A stretch of DNA of 40,501 nt. Origin: an uncultured Rhodospirillales bacterium (lineage in GTDB: Bacteria; Pseudomonadota; Alphaproteobacteria; CACIAM-22H2). This document shows positions 10,205-38,123 of the stretch, one piece after another. The stretch covers positions 1-40,501 of the forward strand of contig CAIOSQ010000030.1 of the NCBI GenBank assembly GCA_903860935.1, in the 5' to 3' direction. Within the stretch, counting starts at the first letter, position 1; each line of letters opens with the position of its first letter. The notes beneath the pieces were generated by a model, which made no database searches, was not told where the DNA came from, and saw only the letters and a list, made by a program, of their open reading frames with translations. The position numbers and the translations under genes were made by a program.

Positions 10205-11934
10205 GCGCGCTGCGTAAGCCAGCCGCGGATGACGGATGCCGCCTCCTCGGGATGCTTATCGACGATCTCGGTGATGCGCTTGAGGGCCGAGGACTGGACC
10301 TGCCCCTCGATCTTGTCGATGTCGATCATCTCGGCCATGGCCTGCGCGCGCTGCGCTTGGAGTGCCTGCATCTCCTGCTCGATTTCCGCTTTCATCCGCG
10401 CCACCTCGTCGACCTGTTCGGTCGGCACGAGCGCGCCGGCACCACCGCCCTCGATCGCGAGCGCGTCCGATTCGGGCGTCCGCTCCTCGAACATCTTCGC
10501 GACGATAGGCCTTACGACGAAGAGCACGACGAGCGCCACGGCGATGCCGAGAACCGCGACCTGCGCGATCAGTTTGATGTCGTCCTTGGTGAAGTCGAAC
10601 ATGCCCGGCGCCTTGATCTCGGGAAGTTCGACGGGGCTGAACGGCAGGTTCACGATCTCGACGCTGTCGCCACGCTCCGAATTGAAGCCGACCGCAGAGC
10701 GAACCAGCCGTTCGATTGCCTTGAGTTCGTCGTCGCCGCGCGGACGCCAGGTCTGGGCTCCGGACGCATCGGTCTGGCGCACGCCGTCGACGAGGACGGC
10801 GACCGAAACGCGCCGGATCGAGCCGGGGTCGATGCTCTCCTTCACCTGCGTGCGCGACACCTCGAAATTCGTCGTTTCCTCGGTTCGCCTCTGTGTCTCG
10901 CTGCCGCGCGTCCCCTGTTGGCCCGCGGTTTGCTGCTCCGGCGGGACGTTGCGCTGAACTGAAAGATCCTGATCGGAGCGCTGTTCCGATTTGTTGGATG
11001 CTTCCTCGACGGTCTGCACCGAGCGCTCAACCCGCCCCTTGGGGTCGAATGCCTCGGTGGTCCGGACCACTGCTGCGTAGGTGACGTCGACATTGACGTC
11101 TGCGCGCACACGACCAAACCCGACATGCTGCTCGACCAACCGCTCCACGGCCGCGCGCAGCCGCCGTTCATGCTCCAGCTTGTGCTCTAGCACGGCGGTC
11201 GCCTGCCCGGCCGCCGTCTCGCCGTCGCCGCGCGCAAGAAGATTGCCTTGAGTGTCGACGATCGAAACCCGCGCCGGCGACAGGTTCTTGACCGCCGACG
11301 CAACGAGATGCCGGATCGATTCGACCCGTTGGCGGGCGGATTCCATGTTTGGCCGGAACTGCACCACCACCGAGGCCCGTGTATCCGGCGTCTGCTGCGA
11401 GAATAGCTCGCGCGTCGGAATGACCAGGTGCACGCGCGCGCTCTCGACCCCTGCGATCGACGCGATGGTTCGTGCGAGCTCTCCTTCGAGGGCACGGATC
11501 TGGTTGATCTGGAACAGGTTGGTCGTCGTGGCCAGTGGATCGACCTTGTCGAAGACCTCGTAGCCCAAAGACCCTTTGCTCGGAAGACGCCGCTCAGCGG
11601 CGAGGATGCGCAACTGCGCGACGCGCGAGCGCTCGACGAGTACGGTCTGCCCACCATCGGCAACCTGATAACGCTCGCGCCCCTGCTCGAGTTGACGCAC
11701 GAGGGCCGCGCTGTCTTCTGGCGCCAATTTTGAGAACAGCGGCACGAAATCGGGCGCCATCAGGTGAACGGCCGAGGCCGCCACGGCGACAACGATTGCC
11801 GCCAGCGAGGCGATAAGACCGACGAGGCGCAACGGCCCCAAACTGCGCAGCGCGTCCAGCAGGCGCCCAGCGGGTCCGCCCTCATCGCGCCCGACCGCCT
11901 CGTCCGAGGCGGCGACAACCGCCGTGTCAGCCAC
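10201..11934 (-). CDS. fliF: Flagellar MS-ring protein FliF
   Basis: FliF builds the MS ring in the inner membrane and the socket for the rod and export gate. The 577-residue product has an N-terminal membrane helix (about residues 36-57), the YscJ/FliF ring-building modules (APEDSAALVRQLEQ, GYEVFDK, RALEGELARTIASI, RVHLVIPTRELF), a long low-complexity linker with Gln/Arg/Thr (about 330-380), a second membrane helix (about 455-480) and the C-terminal FliG-binding tail KHPEEAASVIRGWL. It starts with GTG at 11934 preceded by GAGGG. It lies 122 bases downstream of fliG, unusual as fliF commonly precedes fliG. Confidence 0.97.
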   Translation of the reverse strand: MADTAVVAASDEAVGRDEGGPAGRLLDALRSLGPLRLVGLIASLAAIVVAVAASAVHLMAPDFVPLFSKLAPEDSAALVRQLEQGRERYQVADGGQTVLVERSRVAQLRILAAERRLPSKGSLGYEVFDKVDPLATTTNLFQINQIRALEGELARTIASIAGVESARVHLVIPTRELFSQQTPDTRASVVVQFRPNMESARQRVESIRHLVASAVKNLSPARVSIVDTQGNLLARGDGETAAGQATAVLEHKLEHERRLRAAVERLVEQHVGFGRVRADVNVDVTYAAVVRTTEAFDPKGRVERSVQTVEEASNKSEQRSDQDLSVQRNVPPEQQTAGQQGTRGSETQRRTEETTNFEVSRTQVKESIDPGSIRRVSVAVLVDGVRQTDASGAQTWRPRGDDELKAIERLVRSAVGFNSERGDSVEIVNLPFSPVELPEIKAPGMFDFTKDDIKLIAQVAVLGIAVALVVLFVVRPIVAKMFEERTPESDALAIEGGGAGALVPTEQVDEVARMKAEIEQEMQALQAQRAQAMAEMIDIDKIEGQVQSSALKRITEIVDKHPEEAASVIRGWLTQRA

Positions 11935-16401: not shown

Positions 16402-17108
16402 TCGCGCGCATTCTCCTGCGGGCCCTCGCGGCGACGCTGTTCCTGGCCGCGCCCGCGTCGGCGAGCGGCCTGCCACCCCAGCGATGCGAATCCGCGCCTG
16501 GCCTCGAGGAGGAACTGGTGCGGCGGATCGCCGAGAGGATCGGCGCCTGTCCCCTCGTGACCCTCGGATCGGCGGACTCGCGAGCCCTCGCGGAGGCGCG
16601 ACAGGGCCTCGCCATCGTCAATCTCAAGCTCGACATGCGCGTGGGCACGTTCTCCGCCGCGCTCGCCGACATGAGAGATCCCGGAAACGTCCGGATGCTG
16701 CGACAGCTCCGGGGTTCGCTTTCGATGTCGCGCGAGGTTCCGGTGGTGACGCGCCGGATACTTCCGGGCGAGGTGATCGACGCAGCGGATGTGCGGATCG
16801 TCGCCGTCGATGCGCGTCATGTCCCGCCCAATGCGGTTCTCGACGTGCATCAACTGGTCGGTCTCGAGCCGCGTTGGCCAATTGCGCCGCTGGTGCCCGT
16901 CGCGCGCGCGCAGGTGAAGAACGCGCTGGCCGTCGAACGCGGCGCGGGTGTTCGTGCGGTATTCCGCCGTTCCGGACTTGAACTGACCACGCATCTCGTC
17001 GCCGTGGACGGCGGCGCGATCGGTCAGACCATCACGCTGCGCAATCCGTCTTCAAACAAGCTGGTTCGCGGCCGGGTCGCCGATACCGGCGTCGTGGAGC
17101 TCGAATGA
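16398..17108 (+). CDS. flgA: P-ring assembly chaperone FlgA
   Basis: FlgA is a periplasmic chaperone for P-ring (FlgI) assembly. The 236-residue product has a signal peptide (LLRALAATLFLAAPASA), then a SAF-type domain with VVTRRILPGEVIDAADVRIV and the C-terminal beta domain ending GGAIGQTITLRNPSSNKLVR with GRV, the family signature. Overlaps flgG at the start and flgH at the end, giving tight translational coupling. Confidence 0.95.
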   Translation: MIARILLRALAATLFLAAPASASGLPPQRCESAPGLEEELVRRIAERIGACPLVTLGSADSRALAEARQGLAIVNLKLDMRVGTFSAALADMRDPGNVRMLRQLRGSLSMSREVPVVTRRILPGEVIDAADVRIVAVDARHVPPNAVLDVHQLVGLEPRWPIAPLVPVARAQVKNALAVERGAGVRAVFRRSGLELTTHLVAVDGGAIGQTITLRNPSSNKLVRGRVADTGVVELE

Positions 17109-17869
17109 TGTCCAGGATCGCGTCGCCGCTTCTCATGGCCCTCTGCGCCGCACAATTGGCGGGTTGCGCCGGATTGGACCGTTTGGCCGAGGTCGGCAGC
17201 CCGCCGCGCATGTCGCAGATCGCGGATGTCCGCCGCCCGTCCGAGATCGCCGCCATCCGCTATCCGGTTCCCGACGCGCCGGTGCATGCCGCGACGGCAA
17301 ACTCGATCTGGCGTCAAGGCTCGAAGAGCTTCTTCAAAGACCAGCGTGCCTCGCGTGTCGGAGACATCGTCACGGTGGCCATCAACCTCTCGGACAGCGC
17401 CGATTTCAACGCCGAGAGCAAGCGGACAAGAAACGATTCCAGCAATCTCGATGTCGGGGCCCTGTTCGGCTTCCGCAACCAGTTGTTCAAGCGCCTGCCT
17501 TCGGATGGACCGACCGGATTGCTCAATTCGTCGGAGGTCTTCGGCTTGTCGGGAAGCGGCAGCTTCGCCGGCGCAGGCGGCGCGAAGCGCAGCGAGAACG
17601 TCAAGATCAACCTCGCCGCGGTGATCGTCGAGGCGCTTCCCAACGGCAATCTCGTGATCGCAGGAAAGCAGGAGCTTCGGGTCAACCAGGAACTGCGCGA
17701 CATCCAGTTGACGGGGATCATCCGATCGCAGGACATCGAGCCCAACAATACCGTGAGTTCGGACAAGATCGCCGAGGGTCGCATTTCCTATGGCGGGCGC
17801 GGGCTGATCACCGACTATCAGGCGCCGAGCTATGGCCAGCAGATGATCGAGATCCTGCGGCCGTTCTGA
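17105..17869 (+). CDS. flgH: Flagellar L-ring lipoprotein FlgH
   Basis: FlgH forms the L ring in the outer membrane. The 254-residue product has a lipoprotein signal with lipobox LAGC (Cys about residue 20), then SIWRQGSKSFFKDQRASRVG, DIVTVAINLSDSA, and the C-terminal LVIAGKQELRVNQELRDIQL with GIIRSQDIEPNNTVSSDKIA, all typical of FlgH. The start is ATGATG at 17105/17108; the first overlaps the flgA stop. It is the last gene of this operon and is convergent with the small gene at 17890. Confidence 0.97.
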   Translation: MMSRIASPLLMALCAAQLAGCAGLDRLAEVGSPPRMSQIADVRRPSEIAAIRYPVPDAPVHAATANSIWRQGSKSFFKDQRASRVGDIVTVAINLSDSADFNAESKRTRNDSSNLDVGALFGFRNQLFKRLPSDGPTGLLNSSEVFGLSGSGSFAGAGGAKRSENVKINLAAVIVEALPNGNLVIAGKQELRVNQELRDIQLTGIIRSQDIEPNNTVSSDKIAEGRISYGGRGLITDYQAPSYGQQMIEILRPF

Positions 17870-17889
17870 TCGACACGGCGCATGCCGCC

Positions 17890-18138
17890 TCAAGCGGACA
17901 GCGACAGCTTGCCCCCGCGCGGCTGCCGAACCCGACCACCGGCATCATAGCCTTGCGGCGGTGGGGTCGGCGGTGGCGCGGCATTCGCGTTCTCGGCGGC
18001 GTCCGCGCGCCGGCGTTCCTGTCGTTGCGCGAGGCGCTGTGCCTCGGCCGCGCGGCGGGCTTCGGCTTCTTCCGGCCCTGGACGGGTCGGACCAAGCATG
18101 CGATCGCGCAGCGGATGGGAGGCGACGGCCTGGCTCAT
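17890..18138 (-). CDS. Small hypothetical protein coupled to a J-domain gene
   Basis: The 82-residue product is unassigned. Its first half is a charged helix (PEEAEARRAAEAQRLAQRQE) and the second half is Pro/Gly-rich, ending GGRVRQPRGGKLSLSA. The start ATG overlaps the stop codon of the J-domain gene (ATGA), supporting that it is a real, co-translated gene. No membrane segment. It may be a partner of the upstream J-domain protein, but this is inference from position only. Confidence 0.55.
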   Translation of the reverse strand: MSQAVASHPLRDRMLGPTRPGPEEAEARRAAEAQRLAQRQERRRADAAENANAAPPPTPPPQGYDAGGRVRQPRGGKLSLSA

Positions 18139-18758
18139 GGACGATGGCGCTTCCTGCGCTCCTGGAGAACGTCGAAGATTCGCATGAAATAGCGGAATTC
18201 GGTCGACGACGCATCGGGGTCGTCGCGCGCCGCGGCCGAATCGGGGTGAAAGCGTCGCGCGAAGGCGCGACGAGCCGCTTCGAGGACGAAATCCGGTGCG
18301 TCGGGCGACAGGCCCACGCGCGCGTAGAGGGCGGCGGTCGAGTCCTGCCCATCCGCGTCGGCAGCCGTCTTCGCCGGGGCTGGGCCCGGCGCGGGTCCCG
18401 ACGCGATCTGCGACTTGAGCTGCAGGTAGGATCGTTCGAAATGGCGCGACCTTTGGCCGACAACCTGGAGCGTCTCCTCCAGTCGTGACATCTGCTGACG
18501 CAGAGCGTCCACGGTCTCCTCCAGGCTTCGTGCACGTTGCTCGCTTGCCGCGCGGCGCGGATCGACCGGATCGGGCATCGCAGGCGGCTCGTTGGTCTGC
18601 CTGCGTAGCGCTTCCTCGAGCGTGACCACGTGGTCCGCATCGCGTCTGCGCCAACGATAGGGCGTGCGGCGCTCCGCGGTACGAGGCTCCGGTCCGGGCG
18701 GGCGTCCGCGTCCGCCGAGCCTTTCGCGCAGACGCGCCAGCAAATCGAATCCAATCAC
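18135..18758 (-). CDS. Coiled-coil protein with C-terminal J-like domain
   Basis: The 207-residue product starts (GTG) GFDLLARLRERLGGRGRP, has a coiled coil around residues 70-115 (EQRARSLEETVDALRQQMSR), a Pro/Ala linker and a C-terminal domain with LYARVGLSPDAPDFVLEAAR followed by AFARRFHPD. The HPD tripeptide and its helix context match a DnaJ J-domain, which stimulates DnaK ATPase. There is no zinc finger or substrate domain of DnaJ. It lies between flgH and flgB, so it may help assemble a flagellar part; that is inference. GTG at 18758 is the first plausible start; the ribosome site is weak. Confidence 0.65.
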   Translation of the reverse strand: MIGFDLLARLRERLGGRGRPPGPEPRTAERRTPYRWRRRDADHVVTLEEALRRQTNEPPAMPDPVDPRRAASEQRARSLEETVDALRQQMSRLEETLQVVGQRSRHFERSYLQLKSQIASGPAPGPAPAKTAADADGQDSTAALYARVGLSPDAPDFVLEAARRAFARRFHPDSAAARDDPDASSTEFRYFMRIFDVLQERRKRHRP

Positions 18759-18881
18759 AGCGCGACAGCGTATCGGCCCGATCCAGCGCCCTGAAGCCGA
18801 AGACAGGTCCGAATCGGACACGGTGCGACTCGGCTGACGCGCTGGTGCCCGTATCGTCGGTATCGAAGCGAGGGTGACTTC

Positions 18882-19274
18882 ATGTCGAACACGGCGAAGC
18901 TTCTGGAAGGGGCGATGCGCTGGTGGTCCGCGAGGGGCGGGATCATCGCGTCCAATGTCGCACGCGCGGACATCCCTGGTGAGAGGTCGCGCGATTTCGC
19001 TCAGACGCTGGCCGAGCATGTACGAAACCCCGCGCCCGCGAAGCTTGGCCTTGCCGCTACCGATGCGGGTCACCGTATCGGGCGACTTGCGGAGGCCGAC
19101 CGGCTGGCGAAGGTGGCCGAGGAGCGCAACGGCTCCGTGATCAGCGGCAACGAGATTTCGGTGGAGGACGAGATGATGAAACTGGCGGAAGTCGCTTCGC
19201 AGCATCAGCTCGCCGCCGCGACGTACCGCAAGAACGTCTCGCTGCTGCGGCTCGCGCTGCGCGGAGGACGTTGA
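18882..19274 (+). CDS. flgB: Flagellar basal-body rod protein FlgB
   Basis: FlgB is the most proximal rod protein. The 130-residue product has MRWWSARGGIIASNVARADI with the PGE(R)SRDF continuation, in place of the usual AxNiANadTPgyka, and the C-terminal helix SVEDEMMKLAEVASQHQLAA followed by TYRKNVSLLRLAL, typical of FlgB. The start codon of flgC overlaps the stop (TGATG). It heads flgB-flgC-fliE-fliQ-fliM. The 123 bases upstream hold no recognisable sigma-54 site; a 13-base palindrome with 6-bp arms lies at 18807-18819. Confidence 0.93.
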   Translation: MSNTAKLLEGAMRWWSARGGIIASNVARADIPGERSRDFAQTLAEHVRNPAPAKLGLAATDAGHRIGRLAEADRLAKVAEERNGSVISGNEISVEDEMMKLAEVASQHQLAAATYRKNVSLLRLALRGGR

Positions 19275-19686: not shown

Positions 19687-19965
19687 ATGAAGATCGACTC
19701 CCTCCATGCCGGGACGGCCCAGGGCCTCCAGGCGAAGCCCGCCGCGGGCAAGGCCTTCGACGATGTCCTCAAGGCAACCTACCGCGAGGCCGCACGCGCC
19801 GTCTCGGGCGTCGAGGAGGCCAATCGGCAGGTTGCACTCGGGGTCGCGGACGTCGACGCCGTTGCCACGACAGTGGCCGATGCGGAAATCATGCTGGAAA
19901 CGCTCGTGACCATCCGGGACAAGCTGGTTACCGCCTACAACGACCTCGTGCGCACGCCGGTTTGA
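19687..19965 (+). CDS. fliE: Hook-basal body complex protein FliE
   Basis: FliE joins the MS ring to the rod. The 92-residue product has the family end: FDDVLKATYREAARAVSGVE, NRQVALGVADVDAVATTVAD and AEIMLETLVTIRDKLVTAYN, then DLVRTPV. Typical FliE length is about 100 residues. It lies between flgC and fliQ, a conserved order. Confidence 0.94.
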   Translation: MKIDSLHAGTAQGLQAKPAAGKAFDDVLKATYREAARAVSGVEEANRQVALGVADVDAVATTVADAEIMLETLVTIRDKLVTAYNDLVRTPV

Positions 19966-19976
19966 GCCGCCGCGCC

Positions 19977-20265
19977 ATGGATGCGATCGCGTTCCTGACC
20001 TTGTGCGGAGAAGCCATGCGCGTGACGGCGCTCGTGGCCGGTCCGCCGATCGCGGCGGCGTTCTTCGTCGGCGGCGCGATCGCGATGCTTCAGGCGGTGA
20101 CGCAGATACAGGAAATGACGATCACCTTCGTCCCAAAGGTCGTGGCGATCGCCGCGATCATGTTCCTGGCGGGAACCGCGTCGCTCGACGCGCTGCAAGG
20201 TTTTGGGTGCCAGGACCACCGATCTCATCAAGGAGTACAGGCATGTCGCCGGCAGACCTGGTTGA
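19977..20265 (+). CDS. fliQ: Flagellar export-gate protein FliQ, apparent frameshift
   Basis: FliQ is a two-helix membrane component of the export gate. Residues 1-76 are clearly FliQ: FLTLCGEAMRVTALVAGPPI, FVGGAIAMLQAVTQIQEMTI and TFVPKVVAIAAIMFLAG. After LDALQGF (near 20204) the frame runs on as unrelated sequence to 20456, overlapping fliM by over 200 bases. Shifting by +1 at the TTTTGGG run (20201-20207) restores ARTTDLIKEYRHVAGRPG and a stop at 20265, giving a protein of about 95 residues, close to the family size. One extra base is therefore likely. This may be an assembly error, a real mutation or a programmed shift. Confidence 0.85.
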
Positions 20266-21226
20266 GGGCGCCTCCGACTCTCAGCCATCGCGGGCCGAAC
20301 TGTCGTCCGAGGAGATCTCGGCCCTGCTCGCCGGCCGCCCAGCCGAACCGCTGGGTGGGATCAAGGCGTACATCGACCGTGTCGCCCAGGATGCGCAGGC
20401 CAGCAACCGGATGCCGATGCTGGAAATCATCCTCGACCGCTTCGTGCGTTCCGTGAACACCACGATGCGGAACTTCACGTCCGAGAATGTCGACATCTCG
20501 ATGGATAACGTCACCACTCAACGTTACGACGAGTTCCTCAACGCGCTGTCGGTGCCGACGATGATCGCGATGCTCCGGTCGCAGAAATGGAGCAACTACG
20601 CATTGGTCGTGGTCGAGGCGCCGTTGACGTACGCGGTCGTCGACGTCCTGCTCGGCGGTCGTCATGGCGGCGACCTGCGCGGCCTGGAAGGACGCAGCTT
20701 CACGACGATCGAGCGACGGATGATCGAACGGGTGATCCGTACGCTCGTCGGTGACCTGACGGCGTCCTTTTCGGCGATAGGCGATCCCGGCTTCGCATTC
20801 GACCGGCTCGAGACCAATCCGAAATTCGTCATGCTGGCGCGGCCGGAGACGCCGACGACTGTCGCGACATTCCGCTTCTACATGGAAGACCGCGGCGGCA
20901 AGTTCATGGTCGCGCTGCCTGCCAACCTGCTCTACCCGGTCAAGGACCAACTCGCCCAGCCGTTTCTTGGCGAGTCCTCCGACAACGACGCGACCTGGAA
21001 AGAAACGCTCGGTGGTCAGGTCGGTGCCGCGCCGGTCCGTGTCGATGCAGTGATCGACAAGCTGACGCTGTCGCTCGACGAGGTCTTGTCCTGGCGGCCG
21101 GGATCGCGACTGGTCCTCAATGCCACCCCCGCGTCGCAGGTTGAACTGCGGGCCGACAGCCTGACCATCGCGCGTGGCGAGATGGGGCGGGTGGGGTCGC
21201 GGATCGCGGTCCGGATCCAATCGTGA
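20243..21226 (+). CDS. fliM: Flagellar motor switch protein FliM
   Basis: FliM forms part of the C ring and receives CheY-P. The 327-residue product has an acidic N-terminus with RAELSSEEISALLAGRPA, then the CheC-like middle domain (RFVRSVNTTMRNFTSENVDI, RSQKWSNYALVVVEAPLTYA, VVDVLLGGRHGGD) and the C-terminal SpoA domain (LGGQVGAAPVRVDAVIDKLT, LSLDEVLSWRPGSRLVLN). The N-terminal CheY-binding LSQxEIDALL is altered to LSSEEISALL. ATG at 20243 lies inside the corrected fliQ tail. Confidence 0.95.
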   Translation: MSPADLVEGASDSQPSRAELSSEEISALLAGRPAEPLGGIKAYIDRVAQDAQASNRMPMLEIILDRFVRSVNTTMRNFTSENVDISMDNVTTQRYDEFLNALSVPTMIAMLRSQKWSNYALVVVEAPLTYAVVDVLLGGRHGGDLRGLEGRSFTTIERRMIERVIRTLVGDLTASFSAIGDPGFAFDRLETNPKFVMLARPETPTTVATFRFYMEDRGGKFMVALPANLLYPVKDQLAQPFLGESSDNDATWKETLGGQVGAAPVRVDAVIDKLTLSLDEVLSWRPGSRLVLNATPASQVELRADSLTIARGEMGRVGSRIAVRIQS

Positions 21227-31023: not shown

Positions 31024-32046
31024 GTGAGCGATCCGATCCGCGCAGTGCAGCAATCCGCGGGGACACCGACGGTCCGGCCGGTGGTCCTTGTCGTCGATGA
31101 CGATGCCGATACGATCGAGGAGTTGGCGGATCTCGTCGGCGCGATGGGCTACCCCGTCCGCAAGGCCCGCGATCCCGGGATCGCGCTCAACCTCGTCGCC
31201 GAGGCAGCGGATATCGGCGTCGTGTTGATGGATCTGCGCATGCCCCGCCTGGATGGGCTGTCGCTCGCGGCGCGCATGGCGAAGCAATGCGCCGGCGGTC
31301 TGCCGCCCCATCTCATCTTCATGTCCGGTCACGCGACCATCGAGGACACGATCTCCGCTGTGCGGCTCGACGCCGTCGATTTCCTGATGAAGCCCATCGG
31401 TCAGCGCGAATTGGCGCGGGCCCTGTCCCGCGCGAACGACCTGATCGCCGGCAAACGGCGCGACCTGCTCCGCCGTGTGGAGATCATGCGCTCGGTGGAG
31501 GCCGTGGCCAGCCATGCGATCAAGCTCGCCAACGAATTGTCGACAGGACCCGCGGTTCCCGTGCGGCAGGAGGCGATGGGCCCCGTCTTCACGCCGAAGG
31601 CAGACCGCGGCAAACCGCGGCCGTCGAACCTCCCGGCACTTGCGGGCGAGATCGCGCCCACGGATTCCAGCGACGCCCCGTCCGACGCCGGAGACATTCG
31701 CGCCAGGAACGAGTTCCTCCGCAATCGGATCTCCGCGCTCATCGCCGCGCGCCGCGCCCGCGCGAACTATTTCGACGCGGCGCTGTTTTCCGACCCATGC
31801 TGGGACATGTTGCTCGATCTGATGAACGAGCGTCTGGCCGGCAAGGAGGTCGCGGTATCGAGCCTCTGCATCGCCGCCGGCGTACCGCAGACGACTGGAC
31901 TTCGCCGTATCGATGACTTGATACGTGCGGGTCTACTTGTACGCCGTGAGGATCCGAAGGACCGCAGGCGTGTATTCGTGGATCTAGCAGATGCCGCGAT
32001 CGAGCGTCTGAACCGCTACATCGACGAGATGAGCATTCTCGGCTGA
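31024..32046 (+). CDS. Response regulator with MarR-like winged helix (copy 1)
   Basis: The 340-residue product has an N-terminal receiver domain: acidic pair VVLVVDDDADT, phospho-acceptor in GVVLMDLRMPRLDGL, HLIFMSGHAT and the FLMKPIG lysine. A linker and a MarR/winged-helix domain follow (WDMLLDLMNERLAGKEVAVS, SSLCIAAGVPQTTGLRRIDD, LIRAGLLVRREDPKDRRRVF). The C-terminal half is closely similar to the next gene. GTG start at 31024 preceded by AGGGG. It follows fliL by 10 bases. No histidine kinase lies nearby. Confidence 0.85.
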   Translation: MSDPIRAVQQSAGTPTVRPVVLVVDDDADTIEELADLVGAMGYPVRKARDPGIALNLVAEAADIGVVLMDLRMPRLDGLSLAARMAKQCAGGLPPHLIFMSGHATIEDTISAVRLDAVDFLMKPIGQRELARALSRANDLIAGKRRDLLRRVEIMRSVEAVASHAIKLANELSTGPAVPVRQEAMGPVFTPKADRGKPRPSNLPALAGEIAPTDSSDAPSDAGDIRARNEFLRNRISALIAARRARANYFDAALFSDPCWDMLLDLMNERLAGKEVAVSSLCIAAGVPQTTGLRRIDDLIRAGLLVRREDPKDRRRVFVDLADAAIERLNRYIDEMSILG

Positions 32047-32185: not shown

Positions 32186-33070
32186 ATGAAAACCGAAGGC
32201 ACGCGCGAAAACATCGGTGTCCTGGTCGTCGAGGACGATAGCGACCTGCGCGCGGAACTGGTCGACGGTCTGCGGGCCGCCGGGTTCCGGTGTCTGGGCG
32301 CGCCGGATGGCTCGGCCGCGCTGGAGGCGCTGCGGCTCTGCGACCACAGCGTCGACGTCGTCCTCGCGGATGTCTACATGCCGCGCCTGGGCGGCATCGG
32401 TCTGGTTGGCGCGATCGCGCGCTGCGACGCCGTTGATCCCTGGGTCCGGACCGTCCTGATGTCGGGCAGGGGCAGCGACGAGATCGTACGCGAGGGGCTG
32501 CGCACGAACGCCATCGAAATTCTGCCGAAGCCGATCGCGATGCCCGCGCTCGTCGCATCGATCGCGCGCGCCGGTGAGATCGCCGTCGCGGCGCGTCGCC
32601 GCTTCACGGCTACCAATACCGCTCCCGGCGGTGCTCCCGCTGTCACCATGCCGGCATCCGTCGAGCCTCAGGTCACCGGCTCGCTCGGCGGCGATTTCCC
32701 CCAGTTGCTGGCGGAGCGGATCCGGCGCTTCATGGCGTTCGAAAGGGAGCGAGCCGAGGCGTTCGGCCGGGATCTCGTCGCGGCTCCCGTGTGGGACATG
32801 TTGCTGGAACTGCTCGACGCGCGGTTGCGCGGCAATGGCGTGTCGGTGTCGAGCCTCTGCATCGCGGCCAATGCCCCGGCGACGACCGCGCTGCGCCGCA
32901 TCGACGATCTCGTCGCGGCTGGCCTCGTGCGCCGCCGCCCCGATCCGCACGACAAGCGCCGCGTTTTTGTCGAACTCACCGACGACGCCGTGTGTCGTCT
33001 CGACCGCTTCCTGTCCAGCCGCACCATCGAGACGACCGAATCGGATCCACCGGTCAGGCGACGCGCATGA
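32186..33070 (+). CDS. Response regulator with MarR-like winged helix (copy 2)
   Basis: The 294-residue product has a receiver domain (VLVVEDDSDLRAELVDGLRA, DVVLADVYMPRLGGIGL, TVLMSGRGSD, ILPKPIA) and a C-terminal winged helix (VWDMLLELLDARLRGNGVSV, SSLCIAANAPATTALRRIDD, GLVRRRPDPHDKRRVFVELT). It is a paralogue of the upstream gene; the shared WDMLL and SSLCIAA segments show a tandem duplication, now diverged in the linker. The 139-base gap before it may hold its own promoter, but I see no sigma-54 site. It overlaps the next gene (ATGA). Confidence 0.85.
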   Translation: MKTEGTRENIGVLVVEDDSDLRAELVDGLRAAGFRCLGAPDGSAALEALRLCDHSVDVVLADVYMPRLGGIGLVGAIARCDAVDPWVRTVLMSGRGSDEIVREGLRTNAIEILPKPIAMPALVASIARAGEIAVAARRRFTATNTAPGGAPAVTMPASVEPQVTGSLGGDFPQLLAERIRRFMAFERERAEAFGRDLVAAPVWDMLLELLDARLRGNGVSVSSLCIAANAPATTALRRIDDLVAAGLVRRRPDPHDKRRVFVELTDDAVCRLDRFLSSRTIETTESDPPVRRRA

Positions 33071-33494: not shown

Positions 33495-34565
33495 TCAGCG
33501 CGGCGCTCCGTCACGGCGACGCAATTTGTAGACTTGGACCAGGATCTGCGCGACCTCCGCGAAGCTGTCGTCGGGGATCGGTTCGTCGACCGCGACCTGG
33601 CTGTAGAGCCGGCGCGCGACGGGGGGAACGCGCATGATCGGTACCGATTCGCGCCATGCGAGCCAGCGCAGACGCCGCGCCACGAGCCCAGCGCCCTTGG
33701 CGATCACGATCGGGGCGCTCATCCGACCAGGCTCGTAGAGCAGGGCGACGGCGTAATGGGTCGGGTTGACGATCATGACGTCGGCAGATTTGAGCGGGTG
33801 CTTGCGGCTGGTTGTCCGCCGTTTCCGGCGCAGTTCCGCGAGCTTGCTCTTGAGCTCCGGTCGCCCTTCGCTCTCCTTCAGCTCTTCCTTGAGTTCCTGG
33901 CGCGACATGCGCAACTGGGCGCGGTTCGACAGTCGCTTCACGAGCAGATCGGTGAGCGCAAAGGCCGCGAGCATCAAGAAGGCGAGCGGCGCGAGCAGGA
34001 GCACGGCATCGAGGGCGATCTGACCCGCCTCGCGCGCCGATCCCCCGACACCCAGCGCTCTGTAACGCACGAGCATCGATTGCAGCGCAGCGGACAGGAC
34101 CAGCCCCGCGATCGCGAGCTTGGCTGCATTGAACGTAGTCTGGGTCAGTGCCTTGCCGCCGAAGATGCGCCCGAAGCCGCGCGCGGGAGATAGATTCTCC
34201 AGCGACGCCCGGAGCGGCCGGAACTGGATGCGGAAGCGCTGCTGAGCGAGCCCGATCGCGATCGCCACGATCAGAAAGGTGGCGAGGATCGCGGCGAACG
34301 GGACCAAGATCTCGCGGAGCAGCGCGGCCGCCAGCGCCGGGGAATCGACGGACCGGTTCGCGATCGCGGCGGCGACATCGCGCGCGCGCGCGGTCATGCC
34401 GGAGAACGCGACCCACCAGAGCGGGAACGTCGCGATCAGCGCGACCATACCGCCCAGGGCATAGGTGTCCTGCGGCAGCATGAGCGAGCCTTCCTCGAAG
34501 GCGCGCTCCAGCCGTCGCTCGGTCGGCTCTTCGGTCTTTTCCTGGCTGTCGTCCTTCTCCGCCAC
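33495..34565 (-). CDS. flhB: Flagellar export switch protein FlhB
   Basis: FlhB is the export-gate protein whose self-cleavage switches substrate specificity. The 356-residue product starts DSQEKTEEPTERRLERAFEE, has four membrane helices, and a C-terminal cytoplasmic domain with the autocleavage motif NPTH in ADVMIVNPTHYAVALLYEPG. Length matches the family. It lies downstream of the FlgN-like gene (61-base gap) with an AAGG ribosome site. Confidence 0.96.
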   Translation of the reverse strand: MAEKDDSQEKTEEPTERRLERAFEEGSLMLPQDTYALGGMVALIATFPLWWVAFSGMTARARDVAAAIANRSVDSPALAAALLREILVPFAAILATFLIVAIAIGLAQQRFRIQFRPLRASLENLSPARGFGRIFGGKALTQTTFNAAKLAIAGLVLSAALQSMLVRYRALGVGGSAREAGQIALDAVLLLAPLAFLMLAAFALTDLLVKRLSNRAQLRMSRQELKEELKESEGRPELKSKLAELRRKRRTTSRKHPLKSADVMIVNPTHYAVALLYEPGRMSAPIVIAKGAGLVARRLRWLAWRESVPIMRVPPVARRLYSQVAVDEPIPDDSFAEVAQILVQVYKLRRRDGAPR

Positions 34566-36535: not shown

Positions 36536-36952
36536 ATGCGTGTCGGCAAAACGGGTGGCGCGCGCGGCGCCAGCAGCCGCGGACCGATCCGGCGCGGCGG
36601 CGAATTTCCTGGCGCGTCGGAGACCGGGCGCGCGGAGGCGACCATGGCGCCGACGGACGTCGCACCTACCGGAGGCGTCGGCCTTGCGGACTCGTTGCTC
36701 GCAATCGAGGACCGGCGGCGCGCGATCGAGCGTGGCAAGGCTTCGTTAGACTGCCTGGATCAGCTCAGGCTGGACATTCTCGATGGCGAGTTGCGTCAGG
36801 CGACGGCCGCGCGTCTTGCGCGTCTCGTGAACGAAGGCGGCGACGAAATGCTGGATCCAGAACTGCGTGAGACGGTCGAAGAGATCCGCACGCAATTGCG
36901 CTTCGAGGCGGCACGTCTGGCGCGTGGCGCGCGTCGGGAAGCCGGGGGCTGA
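36536..36952 (+). CDS. fliX: Flagellar assembly regulator FliX
   Basis: FliX in Caulobacter links assembly of early flagellar structures to activity of FlbD, the activator of sigma-54 flagellar promoters. The 138-residue product has a disordered basic N-terminus (MRVGKTGGARGAS), then VGLADSLLAIEDRRRAIERG and the helical C-terminus with ASLDCLDQLRLDILDGELRQ and DPELRETVEEIRTQLRFEAA. This fits the family. Divergent from flgI, the classic FliX-P-ring arrangement. The sigma-54 promoters found in the window give it an obvious role; flbD itself is not present. Confidence 0.88.
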   Translation: MRVGKTGGARGASSRGPIRRGGEFPGASETGRAEATMAPTDVAPTGGVGLADSLLAIEDRRRAIERGKASLDCLDQLRLDILDGELRQATAARLARLVNEGGDEMLDPELRETVEEIRTQLRFEAARLARGARREAGG

Positions 36953-36980
36953 CCGCGTGGACCCGCTCGTCGCGAAACCC

Positions 36981-37205
36981 TCACCTTTGGTCGTCGCTGT
37001 CCGGATGGTCGAGCAGTTCCATACTCGCGACGGCCTCGATGTTCTCGGCCCGGATCTTCTCCCACAACTCGCGTCGCAGGACTTGCACGGAGGCAGGATG
37101 ACGGACGGACAGCTTCACCGTGCGGCCACGCACCTCCTCGACGACGATCTCGATCTCGTCTCCGAGCATAAGGGACTGGCCGACACGTCGCGTGATGAAG
37201 AGCAT
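36981..37205 (-). CDS. csrA: Carbon storage regulator CsrA
   Basis: CsrA is an RNA-binding dimer that controls translation, including flagellin mRNA in some bacteria. The 74-residue product has LFITRRVGQSLMLGDEIEIV with VRGRTVKLSVRHPASVQVLR, the RNA-binding strands, followed by the helix RRELWEKIRAEN. The C-terminal tail is somewhat long. ATG at 37205 has an AGGCGAGG ribosome site. It is convergent with fliX and divergent from the FecR-domain gene. Confidence 0.93.
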   Translation of the reverse strand: MLFITRRVGQSLMLGDEIEIVVEEVRGRTVKLSVRHPASVQVLRRELWEKIRAENIEAVASMELLDHPDSDDQR

Positions 37206-37283
37206 GTTCCGGGCGCCTCGCCTCTTCTGGCCATCGCCAAGACTAACGCAAGATCGGCCGCCGGTGACAGGGCGATACCGCGG

Positions 37284-38123
37284 ATGCGGCTGTCGTCCAT
37301 ACAGGCTGCCGCGGCTGGCATGATCCTGGCCTTCTGTCTCGCGATGCCCGGCGCCGCGCGCGCGAACGACGTCGCGACCGCGCAAAAAGTGGTCAAGGAT
37401 GTCTTCGGTGGTGGCAACATGTATCGCGTCTCGGAGCGCCGGACGCTGCCGTTCCGCGAGACGATCAACACCGGCAAGGAAAGCGGCGCGACATTCCGCT
37501 TCCTAGACGAGACGGTGCTGTCCGTCGGCGAGAACGCGGAGCTGAAGATCGACGAATTCGTCTACGATCCCGGCGGCAAGGGCCTCAAGGGCTCGGCATC
37601 GCTTGCACGCGGCGCGATGCGGTTCGTCGGCAGCACCGCACAGAAAGATGTCACGGTCCGCACTTTTGCTGGAACGATCGGCATCCGCGGTACCGCGTTC
37701 ACGTTGCGTGTCGACGGGCAATTGCTCGAACTCGAAGTGCAGTCGGGGCAGGTCTCGCTGTCGGCGGGCGGTGCGCCGATCGTCGTGCGCGAGGGAGAGT
37801 TCGTGTCCTCGCGTGGCGGCTCTGTCCAGCGCGGTCCCACCACGCCGGCCTTTCGCGCCGCGGTCGCGCAGATCGTCCGCACGCTTGGCGCGGCGCCGGC
37901 GCGCGCGGCGACGGCCGGATCGGGGCCGCGGGATGTCCGCGATGCCTCCGGCCGTCCGCTCGGCATCCTCGTGACGCAGCCAAACGGCCGCATCGACGCT
38001 CAAGACGCCCAGCGCCGCCTGGTCGCCTATTACGATCCTGCGCGTCGCGCCACCTTCCGTGCCGACGGACAGCGCATCGGCGACGGCGACCTGCTGGAAC
38101 AGGTCCTGCGCGGCGGCCGCTGA
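37284..38123 (+). CDS. FecR-domain periplasmic protein
   Basis: The 279-residue product has a signal peptide (AAAAGMILAFCLAMPGAARA-ND) and a FecR domain: RETINTGKESGATFRFLDET, VLSVGENAELKIDEFVYDPG, GAMRFVGSTAQKDVTVRTFA and GTIGIRGTAFTLRVDGQLLE. The C-terminal part includes GRIDAQDAQRRLVAYYDPAR. No sigma factor or TonB receptor lies nearby, so it is not the usual iron-signalling FecR; this type occurs in other periplasmic proteins. Located between csrA and flagellin. The start at 37284 has no clear ribosome site. Confidence 0.8.
   Translation: MRLSSIQAAAAGMILAFCLAMPGAARANDVATAQKVVKDVFGGGNMYRVSERRTLPFRETINTGKESGATFRFLDETVLSVGENAELKIDEFVYDPGGKGLKGSASLARGAMRFVGSTAQKDVTVRTFAGTIGIRGTAFTLRVDGQLLELEVQSGQVSLSAGGAPIVVREGEFVSSRGGSVQRGPTTPAFRAAVAQIVRTLGAAPARAATAGSGPRDVRDASGRPLGILVTQPNGRIDAQDAQRRLVAYYDPARRATFRADGQRIGDGDLLEQVLRGGR

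Follow-up and report, generated by a model that had tools for sequence, protein, structure and literature searches.

We found a pair of overlapping genes, here called A and B, inside a flagellar gene cluster, and we read A, with slightly more belief than doubt for the chain as a whole, as a class C J-domain protein that would direct DnaK to a client belonging to a distinct second flagellum; B is its likely partner. The pair combines a computed J fold with an intact HPD motif, purifying selection, a conserved ATGA overlap and flagellar linkage in two families. The window, meaning the whole 40,501-nucleotide stretch of DNA analysed, is one entire contig (C30) of a draft genome in 468 contigs (G000). 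The genomes compared with it are G001 and G002, which share its genus, G370 and G405, which belong to another family and order of the Alphaproteobacteria, and one further alphaproteobacterial genome (G144). The features discussed are collected in Table 1.

Table 1. Positions of the A-B pair, its parts and the neighbouring flagellar features in the window
Feature	Position	Strand	Description and basis
flgH	17105..17869	+	Pfam FlgH, 180.7 bits
Gene B	17890..18138	-	82 aa; Pro/Arg-rich partner
Gene A	18135..18758	-	207 aa; GTG start at 18758; long helix and C-terminal J domain; homologues, dN/dS
ATGA overlap, stop of A and start of B	18135..18138	-	Seen at 5/5 loci
J domain of A	18144..18338	-	Residues 141-205; helices 141-148, 156-170, 186-205; Pfam (below cut-off), AlphaFold2, Foldseek, VIA-align, hhalign
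HPD motif of A	18240..18248	-	Residues 171-173; in 5/5 homologues
Long single helix of A	18402..18560	-	Residues 67-119; presumed coiled coil; AlphaFold2
N-terminal motif YRWRRRD of A	18639..18659	-	Residues 34-40; R35, W36, R38 and R39 invariant in five
13-bp palindrome GTCCGAATCGGAC	18807..18819	.	Divergent gap between A and flgB; candidate operator
flgB	18882..19274	+	Named by position (a rod gene and fliE come next); unmatched in Pfam at E 1
flhB	33495..34565	-	Pfam Bac_export_2; used for typing the flagellar system

The two genes are antisense to both neighbours, flgH and the gene taken as flgB, a point that the sequence-only reading did not mention. That reading had placed here an HPD-containing coiled-coil protein overlapped by a small partner, and its coordinates and sizes for the pair agree with ours, as does the overlap, which consists of ATGA; the J domain and the long helix that it implied were both found. 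The pair recurs at the same position in G001 and G002 (the contig of the latter stops within flgH), where A is 76% and 71% identical to the window copy, and B 60% and 61%. A has dN/dS values of 0.159, 0.158 and 0.137 in the three comparisons within the genus, indicating purifying selection, with dS ranging from 0.18 to 1.26 and the larger distances near saturation. Constraint is strongest in the J segment (0.063-0.068) and the long helix (0.054-0.114), followed by the N-terminus (0.228-0.304) and the linker (0.347-0.524). The corresponding values of B (0.325, 0.295 and 0.613) show that it is constrained only mildly. B is poorly conserved and matches no Pfam family at E 10; P9, L10, R13, G16, P20 and P22 in its N-terminal stretch are invariant in the five aligned rows. 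A chance open reading frame in GC-rich DNA is ruled out by dN/dS and conservation, and A-B is genuine coding sequence.

The Pfam DnaJ profile (PF00226), which is 63 positions long, aligns through positions 2-60 to residues 144-205 of A. It scores 18.6 bits for the window copy, 25.3 for G001, 21.5 for G002, 13.5 for G370 and 14.2 for G405. All five copies score below the curated cut-off of 27.8 bits, so that the J-domain claim needs other lines of evidence. Among PDB sequences searched with phmmer, the best match of A is the J domain 2och (E 3.3e-4), and the NCBIfam DnaJ models match A at residues 144-206 only. Aligned by hhalign with three DnaJ/CbpA-type proteins that carry an N-terminal J domain and that themselves came from searches with A, the five-member A family gave a probability of 92.95 and an E value of 3.6e-7 over 61 columns. 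In the genomes of the class, a model of the three genus proteins found nine more weak matches after G370, and the five-row model of the family found five weak matches resembling DnaJ, DjlA and CbpA types.

Structure prediction of the C-terminal part had been proposed in the sequence-only reading, whose claim depended on the HPD segment lying in a helix-loop-helix J fold. Run on three sequences, AlphaFold2 predicts helices at residues 67-119, 141-148, 156-170 and 186-205 and a short one at 175-179, with the HPD motif placed directly after helix II (156-170) and before helix III (186-205), as in a J fold; the last helix ends at residue 205 of 207. Mean pLDDT is 67.8, with 81-82 over residues 141-170, 56 over 171-180 and 71-86 beyond, while block means over residues 71-120 of the long helix reach 83-94. 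The J part predicted alone and without an alignment shows the same helices at a mean pLDDT of 83.1, the HPD motif and the residues after it being the weak part. Foldseek against the PDB returned J-domain or Hsp40 titles in 18 of the first 20 rows for whole A and in 19 of the first 20 for the J part, with no row reaching E 0.001 for either. Against the DnaK-bound J domain 5NRO, VIA-align gave Z 5.5 over 61 residues (4.2 A) and Z 6.2 over 60 residues (4.3 A). For the J part, its highest score went to chain B of the Tim14-Tim16 complex (Z 6.8 over 62 residues, 3.0 A, 6% identity), which shares first place with the following rows, since rows within Z 1 count as equal. Z values of this size are middling; ribosomal chains reach 4.3-4.9. 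Taken together, A almost certainly carries a J domain.

Neither the G/F region, nor the zinc finger, nor the C-terminal domain of DnaJ was matched in A (Pfam at E 10, NCBIfam). The assignment of A to class C (type III) is supported by its J homology, the placement of the HPD motif and the absence of these other DnaJ domains. Like A, the class C proteins DjlA, HscB and AtcJ share only the J domain and HPD with DnaJ; A differs from them in its linkage to a flagellar cluster. In DjlA, an N-terminal membrane/TerB part precedes the J domain, and no TerB match was seen in A at Pfam E 10. HscB, encoded in the isc cluster, starts with its J domain and ends in a helical domain, an order that A does not share, as its J domain comes last, after a long helix, at the extreme C-terminus. 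The flagellar export chaperones FlgN, FliS and FliT are small helpers coded in flagellar clusters that are not known to act with Hsp70, and neither A nor B matches them at Pfam E 10. According to a review of bacterial Hsp70 machines, the J domain of class C proteins may sit anywhere in the chain (PMC8215388). The review holds no match for ‘flagell’, and our literature search of open-licence full texts found neither a J protein of a bacterial flagellar cluster nor a J-protein family tied to a flagellar type. Class C J proteins are an already known kind; what would be new is a family tied to one flagellar type.

The contact surface for Hsp70 is partly kept in the A family and partly altered. The residues H, P and D are invariant in all five copies, those of G370 and G405 being 32-37% identical to the window protein, and R163, R164 and R168 of helix II are likewise invariant. 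DnaJ is described in the same review as positioned on DnaK by R22, K26, R27, K48 and K51 (PMC8215388). At the corresponding positions, the A family has E, E, E, H and D for R22, alanine in 5/5 copies for R27, arginine in 5/5 for K26, arginine in 3/5 for K48, and methionine or serine for K51. Two of the five positions are thus arginine in the window protein, one is arginine throughout the family, and the R22, R27 and K51 positions are basic in 0/5 copies each. Ten rows from nine proteins served for comparison (CbpA_L077 and J_L058 are one protein, and J_L066, a wrong open reading frame, was left out); a basic residue stands at R22 in 10 of them, at R27 in 9, at K48 in 7 and at K51 in 0, which makes K51 a poor guide; the lack of any basic residue at the R22 and R27 positions of A indicates that the Hsp70-contact patch is altered.

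This alteration, together with the Pfam scores under the DnaJ cut-off, speaks for the alternative that the J fold of A is a structural or docking module only, with the HPD loop kept for folding or for a non-Hsp70 partner and with no stimulation of ATPase activity. The best VIA-align row of the J part points the same way, as chain B of the Tim14-Tim16 complex is presumably Tim16, the degenerate partner with a J-like domain that lacks HPD. However, the HPD motif is usually lost once contact with Hsp70 is lost, whereas in A the three residues are invariant at 32-37% identity between two families, as are the three arginines of helix II. We therefore consider a purely structural role unlikely. Engagement of DnaK by A is likely. 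An HscB-like protein of G001 also has Glu and Ala at the R22 and R27 positions (read by eye), which makes HscA a possible partner of A; its gene adjoins an HscA-like gene in that genome (named by eye).

Hsp70 genes are present in all five carriers of A. In G000, G001, G002 and G405, one match per genome scores 925-931 bits and is presumed to be DnaK, while another scores 554-596 bits; the second Hsp70 resembles HscA in G000 and G001. In G370, the best match (599 bits) is of the second, HscA-like kind, and other contigs hold two partial matches (567 and 399 bits) that are consistent with a DnaK gene in two pieces. A dedicated extra Hsp70 was looked for and not found: the second full-length gene of G000 and the best match of G370 look like HscA from their neighbours, read by eye (a ferredoxin-like gene and, in G370, iscU).

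The anatomy of A, with a J domain at one end, a long helix, a basic N-terminal motif and an overlapping small gene, suggests a targeting factor that holds a client or site at one end and Hsp70 at the other. We propose that the C-terminal J domain would engage the Hsp70 of the cell, most likely DnaK rather than HscA, and trigger ATP hydrolysis, and that the long helix may make A a dimer or a docking rod. The basic N-terminal motif and B would then bind a flagellar client or a site at the export apparatus or basal body; A and B are presumed to bind each other. In this way A might hold or deliver DnaK to a protein that is kept unfolded, assembled or recycled during the building of the second flagellum.

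The clearest published parallel to A is probably AtcJ of Shewanella oneidensis, a short J protein with a dedicated task whose operon also codes for AtcC, the protein it binds; A and B are alike in gene pairing, with binding between them putative. AtcJ has been proposed to link DnaK with a single client or site, and its tail binds AtcC with a Kd of 7 nM (PMC6715715). By contrast with A, AtcJ is a 94-residue protein with a 21-residue C-terminal extension; its role is in growth in the cold, and no flagellar function is described for it there (PMC6715715). A second comparison is offered by CP1-4 of Phaeobacter inhibens, uncharacterised alphaproteobacterial flagellar genes that are needed for motility and for two of which, CP1 and CP3, a chaperone role was considered; the text on them has no mention of a J domain or DnaJ (PMC12363192). 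In E. coli, flagella need DnaK, DnaJ and GrpE (Shi et al. 1992, as cited in PMC10055731 and PMC11816700), and dnaJ mutants are cited as being without flagella (PMC10055731, citing Shi et al. 1992). The anatomy of A, the precedent of AtcJ, the known Hsp70 need of flagella and the essential role of CP1-4 lead us to favour a DnaK-targeting role in assembly. The case of Pseudomonas counts both ways: that DnaK binds flagellin there is a precedent, but it is described as doing so in a holdase mode that is independent of ATP and needs neither DnaJ nor GrpE (PMC11816700).

A regulatory role was also weighed, in which A directs DnaK onto a transcription or checkpoint factor and thereby sets flagellar expression, rather than chaperoning a structural part. 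The pair is divergent from flgB, and the short gap between them holds a conserved 13-bp palindrome, GTCCGAATCGGAC, a possible operator. With the centre base left free, it is exact in all three genus genomes and has its sole exact copy of the window here; with up to two mismatches, five occurrences were found in the window against 5.12 expected, i.e., not above chance. The E. coli precedent (title of Shi et al. 1992) would also suit this reading, as would two response regulators fused to MarR-like winged helices in the flagellar cluster (31024-32046 and 32186-33070). However, no DNA-binding family scores above cut-off in A or B (Pfam, NCBIfam), and the palindrome is absent from the G405 contig with up to two mismatches and lies upstream of A in G370 only with two mismatches. 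We regard the regulatory role as improbable, somewhat more so than the structural one. A scan of positions 17800-18900 showed no promoter or terminator consensus.

Assembly under a DnaK-targeting pair remains our preferred reading, and the distribution of A-B ties the pair to flagella. A full-length A is present in 3 of the 23 genomes of the window's order (G000, G001 and G002), while G003 of the same order has a partial match of 21.5 bits only. When the class was searched with the model of these three copies, G370 proved to have a full-length homologue as well (E 1.1e-24), and 2 of the 7 genomes of its order, G370 and G405, carry A; G405 has an extra partial copy near a contig end. Full-length matches in the class sample of 385 genomes are G000 and G370, with up to eight candidates scored per genome, so that misses are possible. 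A gene of the whole family is ruled out by the counts of 3 of 23 and 2 of 7. All carriers are draft genomes. A tblastn search with A against 72,556 plasmid records gave no match at E 0.01.

A small gene follows A with the ATGA overlap at all five loci, with 82 codons in G405 and in a frame of 127 codons in G370. These two genes are taken as homologues of B from where they lie, the overlap and their N-terminal stretch; by sequence alone, the B model of the genus lists the G405 copy at E 0.067, behind an unrelated open reading frame (0.031), and the G370 copy is missing from its matches at E 1. The location of the pair changes between the families, from the gap between flgH and flgB in G000, G001 and G002 to a place beside flhB in G370 and G405, where A-B is convergent to flhB with the two gene ends overlapping. 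The G370 contig also holds flgI, fliL and the C-terminus of a flagellin. All five full-length copies of A adjoin flagellar genes, and the flagellar link has been kept despite the change of position. With high confidence, then, A-B is linked to flagella, and the conservation of linkage that the sequence-only reading had suggested checking extends to a second family with another gene arrangement.

G000 has two flagellar gene sets. That of the window spans positions 10201-39118, with Pfam support in the contig for fliF, fliG, fliI, flgA, fliE, fliQ, fliM, motB, motA, flhB, flgI and flagellin, and with three rod-type genes (Pfam) taken as flgF, flgG and flgC. The second FlgH, on C449, is about 42% identical to that of the window, and the second FlhB, on C461, about 30%. 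A second full-size FlhB is present in 4/5 carriers, G002 showing one only. In a tree of 16 FlhB proteins, a branch supported at 100/100 separates the five linked to A-B from the others, among them the further FlhBs of the same genomes. The branch again has 100/100 in a tree of 36 rows, now including the FlhB of G144 (contig C51), which groups with those of G370 and G405 (99/95), and with the other 30 FlhBs apart. The tree carries a warning of long branches meeting. It includes 20 of 27 new FlhB loci from the class; those left out were one already present (L136), one sharing its genus with another row (L151) and five with an internal stop (L139, L141, L153, L157 and L159), and L135, also with a stop noted, was kept. 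The FlhB clade of the window spans three alphaproteobacterial families, and the five carriers alone need two changes on the larger tree, such as a single gain followed by loss in G144.

Searched with FlhB, the 385 genomes of the class gave G370 at 694.5 bits, G000 at 575.4 and G144 at 394.8, the next score being 231.8; as the query included the G370 and window sequences, only the score of G144 is news. With FlgH, G144 came first after the window (251.5 bits), but G370 ranked no higher than row 14 and is not set apart by this protein; typing of the system thus rests on FlhB. Twelve genomes, chosen as carriers or their relatives, were typed in this way: full-length A is present in exactly the five that have this FlhB type, and the other seven are without A. 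That A-B is a general J-protein pair and a mere passenger in the cluster, as its strand opposite to the neighbours and its two positions in two families could suggest, is very improbable given that every full-length copy adjoins flagellar genes and that presence tracks the FlhB type in these 12 genomes.

In the G144 genome, no A was found among 113 of 113 scored candidates with a query that does match elsewhere, an empty result that shows nothing by itself; there is no convincing A or B near flhB or flgH, the best match of the B model being at E 0.1. Its flgH is followed by a transposase-like gene (L162:5213-6442, by eye) near a contig end, where A-B would be, which makes a loss of the pair and a missed stretch indistinguishable.

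E. coli flagella use the general DnaJ; by contrast, A is coded inside a flagellar cluster, which suggests that a second flagellum can bring its own helper for the Hsp70 machine. Found with one flagellar type, A would offer a direct handle, as its partners would name the client. If our reading is true, a secretion organelle can own an Hsp70-targeting factor. A broader version, less likely than not, is that a clade of second alphaproteobacterial flagella has its own Hsp70-targeting pair, which would dock DnaK at the export apparatus or basal body and make ATP-driven Hsp70 action a built-in step of assembly.

Several further features of the contigs were observed. The window has a FecR-domain protein (36867-38123) between flgI and flagellin, and a FecR-like gene also follows flhB in G144 (L161, about 10344-11237; by eye), on a contig that bears the same flhB type and a regulator/winged-helix protein (L161:136-1176) similar to the two of the window. 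A scan of named genome contigs with A gave three records. One contig titled Gemmatimonadetes, VHBO01000063.1, holds the same A-B and flagellar genes as an alphaproteobacterial MAG (the G002 sequence, by eye), and its title is likely a binning or naming error. A 423-aa open reading frame at L067:10452-11723, considered as a fliM candidate, matched no Pfam family and was left out of account. At the edge of the window's contig, grpE (147-953) is accompanied by genes for RNase PH and a HemN/radical-SAM protein, probably a chance neighbourhood. The fliQ frame (19962-20456) has 164 residues, with the Pfam match at 12-81, and extends into the start region of fliM; fliQ is usually shorter, and the long frame may be a frameshift or a real extension.
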